Of a DNA stretch of 64,000 nt, positions 39,914 to 63,900 are shown one piece after another (the stretch's first letter is position 1; each line of letters opens with the position of its first letter). The DNA is taken from positions 212,501 through 276,500 of the forward strand of contig RPFO01000188.1 in assembly GCA_009746045.1 (NCBI GenBank), written 5' to 3'. The notes beneath the pieces were generated by a model. It was not told where the DNA came from and did no database searches. It saw only the letters and a program-made list of their open reading frames with translations. The stretch comes from Mesostigma viride (taxonomy: Eukaryota; Streptophyta; Mesostigmatophyceae; Mesostigmatales; Mesostigmataceae). The position numbers were made by a program, and so were the translations under genes.

Positions 39914-42900
39914 GTGAGCGCCTAACTGCTCATGTGACGTGCCATATGCATATGCATGGTGCCGCTGCTGTCTTGAGATTCATGCGGGCTTGTTTTCAGG
40001 GACTTCTAGTTGGCATTTTAATCACTCTTTGGCGATAATTAGGCAGCTAGCTATAGCTAATAAAATTTCGGGGTTAGCTTTCTTGCCGCGTCTTTCCTTT
40101 TACCTTACCGCTGCCAACGTTAGTTCCTTAATTACTCACGTGCATCATACAGTGGTCGTCTCACCCAGTTCTGCTCGGGTTCCCTCCACCCCATTATGCG
40201 AATTGGCGCTTTCCCCAATCGTACACAGCATTAAATGAAATCCATCGAGGCGACCTGGATGCGGCGGAACAAACTCTGTCGCTCATCGAGCGGCAGTTTG
40301 GCACGAATTCCGGGTATAGGCAATCGTCGGATCAACCCTTCCCTGAGATGGATGTTGCCGAAATAAAGCGCCTCGTCATGCTAAAGCGCTTGGAGGCTCC
40401 CGGCGGCCCCACGAAGCAATCCTTGGAATACCTGAAGAGAGTGAGTAAATTGCGACTTTGGCGGCTCACAGCCGAGGGCTTGAGCAGGGGTCTAGGTGGG
40501 GGGTAGCTGTGGGTTAGCTGTGGGTTAGCTGTGGGTTAGCTGTGGGTTAACTGTGGGTTAGCTGTAGGTTAGCTGTGGGTTAGCTGTGGGTTAGTTGGGG
40601 GTTAGACGGGGTTTAACTGGGGTTTTATTCTAGTCCTACAGTAGAGAATTGGAGACCAACCGCGCCGTAGGGGTAGCCTTGTGAAGCGTTCGTCTCTTAC
40701 AGCAGCTTCTGAAGACATTGCCCAGATGGATGCAACACACGGGTAAACCGATGGATTGTAGGGTAAACCGATGGATTGTAGGGTAAACCGATGGATTGTA
40801 GGTAAACCGATATGGATTGTAGGGTAAACCGATGGATTGTAGGGTAAACCGATGGATTGTAGGGTAAACCGATGGATTGTAGGGTAAACCGATGGATTGT
40901 AGGGTAAACCGATGGATTGCAGGGTAAACCGATGGATTGCAGGGTAAACCGATGGATTGTAGGTAAACCGATGGATTGTAGGCAAGGCGTTGTGAGCACA
41001 CGCCAGGGAGGATGCCTGCCTAGCATAGACGGGTCGCAGGTAGCTTTCTCTGCAGCAAGAAGGGCAGCTGACTCAAATTGTATGCAGTAACCTGTTCTGT
41101 GGTGACTTACCTTCCCTTGGTTGCTGAGTAACCTACTTAGGGAAAGCCTCAGCATGACCGTATAAGCACGCAATGGGTTGCATGCCCTTGCTGGTCTGTT
41201 GGCACGGAATCAGTACGTGCATGTTTTGCAATCATCACAACACTGAGCCTGCTGTCACAACGCTGACCCATTAAGGAAGATGTGTCTGCGAGTGGGTGTG
41301 GGTGTGGGTGTGGGTGTGGGTGTGGGTGTGGGTGTGGGTGTGGGTGTGGGTGTGGGTGTGGGTGTGGGTGTGGGTGTGGGTGTGGGTGTGGGTGTGGGTG
41401 TGGGTGTGGGTGTGGGTGTGGGTGTGGGTGTGGGTGTGGGTGTGGGTGTGGGTGTGGGTGTGGGTGTGGGTGTGGGTGTGGGTGTGGGTGTGGGTGTGGG
41501 TGTGGGTGTGGGTGTGGGTGTGGGTGTGGGTGTGGGTGTGGGTGTGGGTGTGGGTGTGGGTGTGGGTGTGGGTGTGGGTGTGGGTGTGGGTGTGGGTGTG
41601 GGTGTGGGTGTGGGTGTGGGTGTGGGTGTGGGTGTGGGTGTGGGTGTGGGTGTGGGTGTGGGTGTGGGTGTGGGTGTGGGTGTGGGTGTGGGTGTGGGTG
41701 TGGGTGTGGGTGTGGGTGTGGGTGTGGGTGTGGGTGTGGGTGTGGGTGTGGGTGTGGGTGTGGGTGTGGGTGTGGGTGTGGGTGTGGGTGTGGGTGTGGG
41801 TGTGGGTGTGGGTGTGGGTGTGGGTGTGGGTGTGGGTGTGGGTGTGGGTGTGGGTGTGGGTGTGGGTGTGGGTGTGGGTGTGGGTGTGGGTGTGGGTGTG
41901 GGTGTGGTGTGGGTGTGGGTGTGGGTGTGGGTGTGGGTGTGGGTGTGGGTGTGGGTGTGGGTGTGGGTGTGGGTGTGGGTGTGGGTGTGGGTGTGGGTGT
42001 GCGTGTGGGTGTGGGTGTGGGTGTGGGTGTGGGTGTGGGTGTGGGTGTGGGTGTGGGTGTGGGTGTGGGTGTGGGTGTGGGTGTGGGTGTGGGTGTGGGT
42101 GTGGGTGTGGGTGTGGGTGTGGGTGTGGGTGTGGGTGTGGGTGTGGGTGTGGGTGTGGGTGTGGGTGTGGGTGTGGGTGTGGGTGTGCGTGTGGGTAGGG
42201 GTGGGGGTGGGGGTGGGGGTGTGTTGACCTATTTCGTGGAGGGATCGCCAGTGGTATTGCTGTTCGTATCTTCATCCGCCTGGCCCATCTGTTGTCCCGA
42301 TGTTCCTGATCATTCCCTATTTTTTATCCCTCCCTCGCCGCCGCTGCTGATGGCATTTCTGCCCCATGCGTTAAGCAGGAACTGTCGCTTGACTTCGATG
42401 ACGCGCGGCCGGCCAGGGTCCCCGACAGCACATCCCCCGTACATGGGGAGCTGACCGCTCGCCCTCCCGCAGCGCTCAAAGAGGATGCGGCGGCGGCCGA
42501 GGCCTTCCGACAGCATGCGCTCAAACACGAGAACGGCGGCTTTTCACAGCTTGAGGAGTGCTCCTACGGTGGGTATGATATACTATATTATGGGTTTGCA
42601 TGTTTCCTAGGATCCTATGCACTCCAGCAGGGGAATGGCGGCTTTGGGCAGCTGGAGGAGTGATCCTACGGTGAGCGTAGTGTAGTGTCGCGTTGTATGA
42701 TTGTATGTTGTCGTACAGGATCGAGCGATACTGGGATCTGGAGGGAAGGGTGCTCATGCGGTGTAAGGAAGCAGAAGGAACAAGTCCCATAGGATGTTTG
42801 TGAGTTTGAGAGTGCAAGTTCGAGAGACAGGTGCTTCTGTGATGAGTAGGACCAGGAGAGGATAACCGCAATAGGAGCGACTTCACTTTGGGGGGTACTT

Positions 42901-60900: not shown

Positions 60901-63900
60901 CGTATCGCACCCACCTATATTGGAATCACCGCATCCCCATCTGGCCGCCTTTCTCGTGCAGAGCCTCGCCAACCTGACGCCCGACGCCCAGGGCGTGGTG
61001 CACGTCCCTGGGGAGCTCCTGGCGGCGCGCTCTCCGGGCCAGACCCTTCTCCAGGTGCTGGCGATTGACCCCCTGGGACACACGGCGTATGTGGAGCGAC
61101 CGGTCGCTGACGTGGCACGTGTCAAGGGTGAGCAAGGGGCCCCCGACGCGCTTCCCCTCTGATTAAGAAAATTCCGCCTTTTTCTCTTATTGGAGGCACA
61201 ATCTTTTGCTGAAGGGATTCCCTATTTCTGTATTGCATGGTTGTCATTGGGTCGGCTTGTGTTCACTCTCTAGACAATCAGTGGCTCTTTCAAATGCCAG
61301 TTGGTGTGACCTTGTCTTGTTGCTATTCAAACAACATAATAATTATTATTATTTGTAATGCTGACCTCGCTTTACCAGAGGCAACATGCCAAGTAACCTC
61401 GCTTCTCGAGTTCATCAAAGAGTTTCCAGCAACGAAAACTGCTCATATGGACTTCTCGTATGGTCTGATATTTGCGGGAATATCAACCTTTTCTTGGCAG
61501 TGGTAAAGTACCTCCTGATAGTACACTTCCAGGTGAGGAAATGCGGGCGGCCCTGGCCTGATAGTACACTAACATAGCCGCCCGCATTTTCTCCGGCGCT
61601 GATGGGTGCCCGTCCTGCTTATCATTGCTCTTGTGGCCATGCGATGGCCGCTTCCATGGCTGAAGAACAAGCTTTCCAGCTCGTGAGGCCGACCTGCTTT
61701 GTAGCCTGCTTGTTTGGTTTCTTGTTTCTGCTTGGATGGGTGTTCGGTGCGCTATTATTTTTTTGTCTTGTGTGTGCGTGCGTTGATATGTGTATGTGTA
61801 TGTGTTTCTGATGGTTTTGTGTTTGGTCTTTGTTTTCTGTTGCTCTTTCGGCCATGCAGCATCTTCGGGGGCGCTTATCCCCTACCGCACCATGTCGCTC
61901 CCTAAAGAGCTCGCACTGGACCCCCTGAGGCACTTTCTGGAGCGCCGGGCCATTTCCCTGTTGTGGCCGGCAGCATCGGGTGGTGTGACTGCTGGCATAC
62001 GCAACACGTGTGTCATCGCCGACACCACGACGTCAACGGTCAAGGTCTACAGCACCCTGGACGAGGTATAGTTTTGATTATGTATGAGAGTTGCAGACTA
62101 TCTAGAGGCTATGTTCCAGAGGCCATGATCTTGTGGCTATGGCCTATCAATTATAGTATCGGTTCTCTAGAGGCTATGATCTTGTGGCTATGATCTATCA
62201 ATTATAGTATTGATTATCTCGATGCTATGTACTTGTTCTTGTTCTTGTTCTTGTTCTTGTTCTTGTTCTTGTTCTTGTTCTTGTTCTTGTTCTCGTTCTT
62301 GTTCTCGTTCTCGTTCTCGTTCTCGTTCTCGTTCTCGCTCTCGCTCTCGCTCTCGCTCTCGCTCTCGCTCTCGCTCTCGCTCTCGCTCTCGCTCTCGCTC
62401 TCGCTCTCGCTCTCGCTCTCGCTCTCGCTCTCGCTCTCGCTCTCGCTCTCGCTCTCGCTCTCGCTCTCGCTCTCGCTCTCGCTCTCGCTCTCGCTCTCGC
62501 TCTCGCTCTCGCTCTCGCTCTCGCTCTCGCTCTCGCTCTCGCTCTCGCTCTCGCTCTCGCTCTCGCTCTCGCTCTCGCTCTCGCTCTCGCTCTCGCTCTC
62601 GCTCTCGCTCTCGCTCTCGCTCTCGCTCTCGCTCTCGCTCTCGCTCTCGCTCTCGCTCGGGCTCGGGCTCGGGCTCGGGCTCGGGCTGTGGCTGTGGCTG
62701 TGGCTCTGGCTCTGGTTCTGGCTCTGGTTCTGGTTCTTGTTCTTGTTCTTACTACGGTTTGTTTTATTCACTGGACTGAAGTGTTGAATCACTGGCCTTC
62801 AGTGCACTGAACTGCACAGGACTGGGAAGCACCCTTTCTGTCCCTAGGTCCCCTTCTGTCTGCCAGCCAAAAATTATCACGGCTGCAGACCTCACTTTGT
62901 TTTTGGTTTTTTCCATTTTTGGGGGGGGATATCTACTGACTCTGATGCCATCACCTTTCCTCCTAATACATCTTCCCCCTCCCCCCCCCCATTGCCACCT
63001 CCTTTCCCCCTTTCCCCACCGTCCCCTGCTTCCGTGGCCATCACCCCCCCCACCGCCCACTCCCCCCCCCAAAAAACAGGTTCACTGCCTCTTCTCTACG
63101 CTGGGCGTGCCCGCGACAGAGACGTCCCAGCAGAGGGGTGCCTGGGACGCATTCGGCCGCGCGCTGCTCTTCTGGCCCACCCTGGCCACATCCCAGAAGA
63201 TGGAGCTGCTCTCACTGCACGCCAGCCACGAGCTGCATCTGTTCCTATACTTCAAGGACCCTGTCTTCTTTGACCAGGTGAGGGTGCCAGACATCATACT
63301 TTGTTGCTATGTTTACCGGCCTGGCCTTCTTTGACCAGGTGATCATGCCAGACACTGCACTTTGTCGCGTTATGTAAAAGACCTGGCCTTCTTTGACCTG
63401 GTGAATGTGGCGGATGCCATACTTCGTCGACCAAGTGAACGTGGCAAATGCCATTCTTTATCCTTTGTTTCAAAGACCTGGCCTTCGTTCACCAAGTGAG
63501 CTGCACTTGTGGCACAAGCTGCACTTGTGGCACAAGCTGCACTAGTTTTGTCACTGCAAGGACCCAGCCCTGCTACCCAAATAGGCCTGCCATTGGCTGC
63601 ATTTGTCACTCTACTTCTAAGGACCTGGCCTTCTTTGACCAGGTGACAATGTTGCGCGCCAAGCCCAGAGCCGGCTCCCAAATTGGCGTGGAAGGGGGGT
63701 CGCAGAACCCTGAAACATCGTCATCGCATCACCATATCCACTCCCCCACTTTTCCTTCTAACCCGAACTCCCCCCCCCCCCCCTTCCACCTTTCCACCTT
63801 CCCCCTCCCATCCATCCCCCTTGCTAGGTGGTCGCCCCCTTCCTGCGCCACAAGATGCACCGCACGTTCCTCGACCGCTACCTCCTGGGTGAGCCCCTGG

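Follow-up and report, generated by a model that had tools for sequence, protein, structure and literature searches.

Copies of exon ends and their splice donors in the introns of Mesostigma viride are consistent with pervasive short-range tandem duplication

Do the introns of the streptophyte Mesostigma viride carry copies of the exon ends that precede them and, if so, what produced these copies? The question is raised by a window of 64,000 nucleotides (assembly GCA_009746045.1, contig RPFO01000188.1, positions 212,501 to 276,500 of the forward strand), which holds a gene of many exons, hereafter the big gene, and a ZRSR2-like gene. An earlier note, made from the sequence alone, had described diverged copies of the last exon bases, followed by GT, in the introns of both genes, and had read them as tandem duplications across exon/intron borders that leave reservoirs of alternative donors. 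Such copies are called echoes here. With a probability of about 0.78, we regard them as the exon-overlapping edge of a pervasive process of short-range tandem duplication that donors tolerate and that is filtered out near acceptors.

The three examples given in the earlier note were recovered in place, namely GGTTGCGGGCAACG followed by GT at 46048 and again at 46095, CCAGACAG with its GT at 47903 echoed by CCGGACAG with GT at 48074, and GGGCGACGATG followed by GT at 53858 and 53953. When all copies were sought, 23 echoes that reached the junction were found (Table 1), distributed over 12 of the 20 introns of the big gene and 1 of the 6 introns of the ZRSR2-like gene, while the other 8 and 5 introns had none. 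The claim that the ZRSR2-like gene has the same feature thus holds for a single intron; among the introns that had been listed for the big gene, one did not stand, probably that after rebuilt exon 14 (ending at 57216), which had short repeats only, at chance level and matched as well by 13 other introns. The exon part of the echoes aligned at 79% identity, and GT stood at the copied junction in 18 of 23. Intron positions +1, +2 and +3 agreed at 20, 19 and 20 of the 23 echoes, and in an ungapped comparison the intron part was similar over its first few bases and then about half or less, with several echoes running on for 19–25 bases into intron sequence. Echoes lay 28 to 365 bases from the donor, with a median of 103.

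For 26 introns from the two genes, the last 60 bases of the preceding exon were compared by alignment with the opening 365 bases of that intron and of every other. The own intron was strictly best for 13 of the 26, where chance would give about 1, and 20,000 permuted pairings all fell short of the observed sum (p = 5e-5). A reverse-complement control gave 0/26. One of the 13, the intron after exon 13, had a weak match that fell short of the junction; conversely, the intron after exon 5 was equalled in score by one other intron, yet plainly holds a 47-bp tandem array. Four scoring schemes returned between 11 and 13 own-best introns, and against 500 Markov shuffles per intron the match had p ≤ 0.004 in 11/26 and p ≤ 0.05 in 14/26.

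The same comparison was made elsewhere in the 440-Mb assembly with conserved genes taken exon by exon using Pfam models, donors being picked by rule. From 58 CCT chaperonin matches 52 were entered, leaving out the match on contig C2011, three of C1641, and one each of C1106 and C777 that lay outside the fetched stretch; 20 kinesin exons were fetched of 129 matches, and none of 28 tRNA-synthetase matches. After filtering there were 36 donors and 43 acceptors for CCT, and 14 donors and 18 acceptors for the 20 kinesin exons. The own intron was strictly best for 11/36 CCT exons (control 1/36) and 6/14 kinesin exons (control 0/14), each with p = 5e-5. Own pairing therefore beat shuffled pairing in all three gene sets, and the replication in CCT and kinesin genes shows that the feature extends beyond the window. 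One CCT donor was mis-picked (L047:4660, an echo donor whose true exon end is 4612); it is included in the CCT and array counts and was dropped from the pooled counts. Loci L003 and L004, on contigs C1641 and C887, were at best 40% identical in a position-by-position comparison. Contig C2011 of G000 carries an intronless full-length chaperonin open reading frame (ORF) and several intronless tRNA-synthetase ORFs, and probably represents bacterial contamination of the assembly. The published M. viride genome description gives a size of 442 Mb, 24,431 annotated genes, a mean intron length of 1142 bp, and a repetitive fraction of 30.1% of intron space (PMC6947507).

The physical nature of the echoes was examined with Tandem Repeats Finder at loose settings, counting arrays (52–97% matched) that started in the exon, crossed the junction and held at least one further unit. 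Head-to-tail arrays with units in register were found at 12/76 donors vs 2/87 acceptors (Fisher p = 0.0035), and in the replication genes alone at 9/50 vs 2/61 (p = 0.02). One series, in a CCT gene (L047:4582-5068, G000 contig C1702), comprised in-register 48-bp units after the exon end, ten in all, each with CCAAG followed by GTGAGC or GTGCGT; another CCT gene (L040) had four 76-bp units, and in a kinesin gene (L069) a 70-bp unit was repeated exactly. The array-borne copies are tandem duplications of DNA, which bears out the idea that duplication spans exon/intron borders, and the feature is present in unrelated genes. Older, single or separated echoes would share this origin, judging from their similarity, their distance and, in several, the continuation into the intron. 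Because echo identity spans from about 65% to 100%, duplication has been recurrent, as had been proposed, and not one event.

Pooled over the gene sets, exon ends had a downstream copy in 25/75 cases, intron bases 1–60 in 22/74 and bases 61–120 in 22/72. The exon end was thus copied about as often as the adjacent intron bases, which rules out the donor as a duplication hotspot; the donor is not special, and an echo is therefore the edge of an intron-wide process. Local copies were found for 228 of 639 intron 60-mers in the window, and in a forward-only test for 47/134 in introns, 35/268 in intergenic or transposon sequence and 4/37 within exons. In the window, intron positions lying over 600 bases away from the donor had the highest rate (90/193), and the 120 bases that lead up to the acceptor had the lowest (20/92).

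Copies were rarer at acceptors. The pooled rates of upstream copies were 10/87 for exon starts, 13/86 for the last 60 intron bases and 16/84 for the preceding 60. Acceptor echoes, on which the earlier note is silent, were nevertheless above chance in all three sets (window, p = 0.004; CCT, 3/43, p = 0.002; kinesin, 3/18, p = 5e-5), with values in the window that varied over the four scoring schemes (p of 0.004, 0.11, 0.61 and 0.011, with 3, 3, 1 and 2 of 26 best), one of the three window matches being a CT-rich match. Summed over the three sets, echoes were found at 30/76 donors vs 9/87 acceptors (p = 1.6e-5), and in the replication sets alone, with the per-set 365-base criterion, at 17/50 vs 6/61 (p = 0.002). 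The asymmetry between donors and acceptors is likely to be real, though not beyond doubt.

A simple mechanism may account for these observations. Short tandem duplications would keep arising all along Mesostigma introns and then decay. Where a unit spans the 5' splice site, the result would be the exon, its donor, the intron start, a copy of the exon tail with a copy of the donor, and the rest of the intron; the message is unchanged if the exon-proximal donor is still used, so the duplication would be effectively neutral and persist as a fading echo. A unit spanning the 3' splice site would set a copy of the tract and its AG upstream as a competing acceptor; under first-AG selection this would add intron and exon sequence to the message, so that most such duplications would be removed by selection. 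Since the real exon and donor are held by selection as the rest drifts on both sides, functionless decay would be expected to yield broadly the echo pattern found. Selection, as opposed to mutation bias, would accordingly be the cause of the asymmetry, a step that we infer.

Several points weigh against this account. Some strictly-best CCT matches were weak or gappy and may be due to chance, and a pooled null reduced the CCT count to 7/35. With a pooled 240-base criterion, the difference between donors and acceptors in the replication sets was not significant (13/49 vs 9/61, p = 0.15). Duplication is also low over the final 120 bases of introns, and C-rich tracts there may hide matches, so the asymmetry may be partly mutational or technical. 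GT was kept in the 18 of 23 echoes noted above vs 377/691 (55%) adjacent exon-part pairs with ends trimmed (p = 0.017), an excess that pure decay would not predict; it is treated as weak, given that echoes of one intron do not count as independent and that the alignments were selected to extend to the junction. Finally, use of the exon-proximal donor is suggested by reading frame and homologues only.

Alternatively, a mutational bias could direct duplication towards the 5' part of introns, for instance through transcription-linked breaks, with selection playing a minor part in the asymmetry. The pooled rates, richer on the 5' side of introns than on the 3' side, are in keeping with this, but the window shows a dip at the acceptor and not a peak at the donor, with the highest rate far inside the intron, and we consider such a bias unlikely as the main cause. 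A related proposal, which we also find doubtful, holds that duplication across or near the donor is a main route of intron lengthening in this lineage, driven by 5'-biased mutation linked to transcription or splicing, and leaves ladders of retained GTs that are partly used in frame. If true, a 5'-biased process would build ladders of equivalent donors, of which the ten in register in the CCT gene would be one.

Could the echo donors be functional, that is, retained as decoy or alternative 5' splice sites with a role in gene regulation or protein diversity? The weak excess of GT would fit such a role, as would the CCT array, in which every one of the nine later donors keeps an open frame and would, if used, lengthen the product by a further 16 residues. 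Against it, all 20 echo-junction forms tested for the big gene contain stops, while the exon-proximal form has none. Outside the window, an echo extended an open frame at 2 of the 15 exon ends tested (the weak echoes L038:4650 and L048:834 being omitted), and 13 of 14 single-echo extensions in the CCT and kinesin genes shifted the frame or met a stop. Echo distances were not enriched for multiples of three (6/25). A functional role is thus improbable in general, and the reservoirs of alternative donors proposed by the earlier note found no support in the big gene. Given the stops and the failed frames, a reservoir for proteins would be possible only rarely, with the ten-unit CCT gene as the best candidate.

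Under the Rogers model, introns are born when exonic AGGT is duplicated in tandem, and the repeats would be traces of that event. The model does centre on exon sequence that carries a splice motif and is duplicated in tandem, but exon ends scored no better against the 3' end of their own intron (4.8) than against those of others (5.0; p = 0.91; 0/26 best), nor did the start of the next exon match the intron's 5' end (p = 0.11; 0/26 best). In addition, several copies continue 19–25 bases into intron sequence, so the intron was already present at duplication, and this origin is very unlikely. Whole-exon duplication, as in mutually exclusive exons, was rejected, since in tests of 60 exon bases the starts were best in 1/26 and the middles in 3/26 (a slight match, p = 0.01), and the resulting forms bring stops. 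Chance similarity or base composition, in favour of which one may cite the repeat-rich introns, is of negligible probability in view of the permutation results and reverse-complement controls in three gene sets, of the shuffle and scoring controls in the window, and of best copies that mostly stop at the junction and continue with GT (20/25).

Pervasive short-range tandem duplication has partial parallels in known systems. That tandem duplication makes or moves introns is already established (PMC4974935, PMC2891723). The intron-gain cases told in the former (ATP2A1, the 24-bp repeats of fission yeast and potato RdRp) are alike in that a segment holding a splice motif, within an exon or beside one, can be duplicated in tandem without altering the protein; they differ in that here no intron is born, and it is an existing donor that is copied into the intron it belongs to, repeatedly and across many genes. 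The potato paper mentions in passing an 83-bp tandem duplication within an intron. Systems that move introns likewise involve duplicated or cryptic splice motifs near the original, whereas here the intron position is fixed and the first donor is still coding by its reading frame. Intronic minisatellites share the decaying head-to-tail units of tens of bases, and the same introns hold ordinary arrays, but in the echoes the first unit lies partly in a coding exon and the units carry donor copies. Introner elements are one repeat family spread across introns of many genes; here the copies are of each exon's own end and match its own intron. A study from 2007 reportedly found that tandem arrays give new introns by supplying splice sites. 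Splice sites are likewise supplied by the arrays described here, but old introns are lengthened and the extra sites look unused. In a literature search that covered few subscription papers, no recognised description was found of donor-spanning tandem repeats genome-wide or in Mesostigma; relative to the literature so covered, their pervasiveness and the donor/acceptor asymmetry appear to be new.

Echoes would represent a route for intron growth without protein change, seen at many ages within one genome. They also allow the choice that a spliceosome makes among several near-identical donors to be studied as a natural experiment. If selection causes the asymmetry, the genome records duplicated donors as nearly harmless and duplicated acceptors as not. 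Annotation of such genomes may meet false alternative donors.

The model of the big gene was built on splice sites and reading phase. The gene lies on the plus strand and runs beyond the end of the window, within which its 21 exons are in phase and give 1483 stop-free codons; the figure of 24 exons was an earlier count. A protein search that scored the 7991 candidates with most words in common yielded 34 relatives, mostly of about 2,000–2,300 residues and covering up to 98% of the query. Against a profile of the relatives longer than 1,800 residues, the form using the exon-proximal donors ranked top of 21 spliced forms with 807 bits, which supports the exon ends used. In the minority for which an organism was named, the relatives were bacterial (Verrucomicrobiaceae, Nannocystis, Planctomycetes), although the searched database includes EukProt proteins; with at least 20 introns, the gene may possibly stem from an old transfer followed by much intron gain. 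Pfam gave no family in a 647-residue part of the protein or in two homologues, viral_contigs scans gave no relative of the gene, and an Rfam scan had no match. The ZRSR2-like gene at 22–30 kb was rebuilt with six introns, and its reading phase does not match from exon 2 to exon 3.

Table 1. Coordinates of the big gene, of donor and acceptor echoes and of donor-crossing tandem arrays in the window.
Feature	Position	Strand	Remarks
Big gene	42379..64000	+	21 exons in window; runs off end
Big gene exon ends, exons 1-10	42568, 43204, 44236, 45311, 46048, 46935, 47903, 49069, 50521, 51139	+	in-phase splicing, homologues, profile score
Big gene exon ends, exons 11-20	52934, 53858, 55109, 57216, 57816, 59217, 60570, 61127, 62065, 63277	+	in-phase splicing, homologues, profile score
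Echo of exon 1 end	42617..42670	+	80% identical over 54 bases, then GTGAGC
Echo of exon 3 end and first 25 intron bases	44380..44427	+	junction 44402
Tandem array across exon 5 donor 46048, period 47	46033..46123	+	starts 16 bases inside exon 5; second donor 46095
Two echoes of exon 6 end	46980..47134	+	junctions 47037, 47134
Echo of exon 7 end with intron start	48052..48095	+	junction 48074
Echo of exon 8 end	49228..49254	+	junction 49251
Echo of exon 10 end	51359..51413	+	TC replacing GT; junction 51391
Echo of exon 12 end	53926..53961	+	junction 53953
Echo of exon 15 end	57929..57968	+	junction 57959
Tandem array across exon 16 donor 59217, period 52, 4.1 copies	59186..59395	+	starts 32 bases inside exon 16; donor copies at 59269, 59318, 59370
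Additional echo of exon 16 donor region	59522..59555	+	junction 59540
Two echoes of exon 17 end	60593..60695	+	junctions 60627, 60675
Tandem array across exon 20 donor 63277, period 61, 2.9 copies	63254..63429	+	tandem repeat search
Two more echoes of exon 20 donor	63455..63646	+	junctions 63495, 63642
ZRSR2-like echoes, 3' end of exon ending 26110	26285..26447	+	junctions 26344 (GTAAGG), 26446 (GC)
Acceptor echo, copy of exon 6 start (46619)	46547..46568	+	behind own C/T-rich tract and AG
Acceptor echo, copy of ZRSR2-like exon start (26584)	26494..26540	+	

Other repeats were noted in and around the big gene. About 15 copies of a 50-bp unit, unlike the exon end, occupy 49273-50010 in the intron after exon 8, and most of them contain, by eye, a donor-like GTAAGT. 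A hexanucleotide array of 155 GTGGGT units at 41292-42223 lies just 5' of the first exon found, and 61 TCTCGC units plus related ones at 62228-62749 lie within intron 19.

Transposon-like sequences were also present in the window. An open Copia-type polyprotein ORF of 1377 amino acids at 4594-8727 had a weak RVT_2 match, below the cut-off, and no relative in the viral_contigs scan. Near-identical ORFs in opposite orientation at about 10800-17200 and 32700-35700 point to a retroelement region that is present as two inverted copies. Its reverse-transcriptase ORF at 32955-33806 (minus strand) matched two EukProt proteins with the label jgi/Mesvir1, read here as Mesostigma viride, at 98% and 100% identity.

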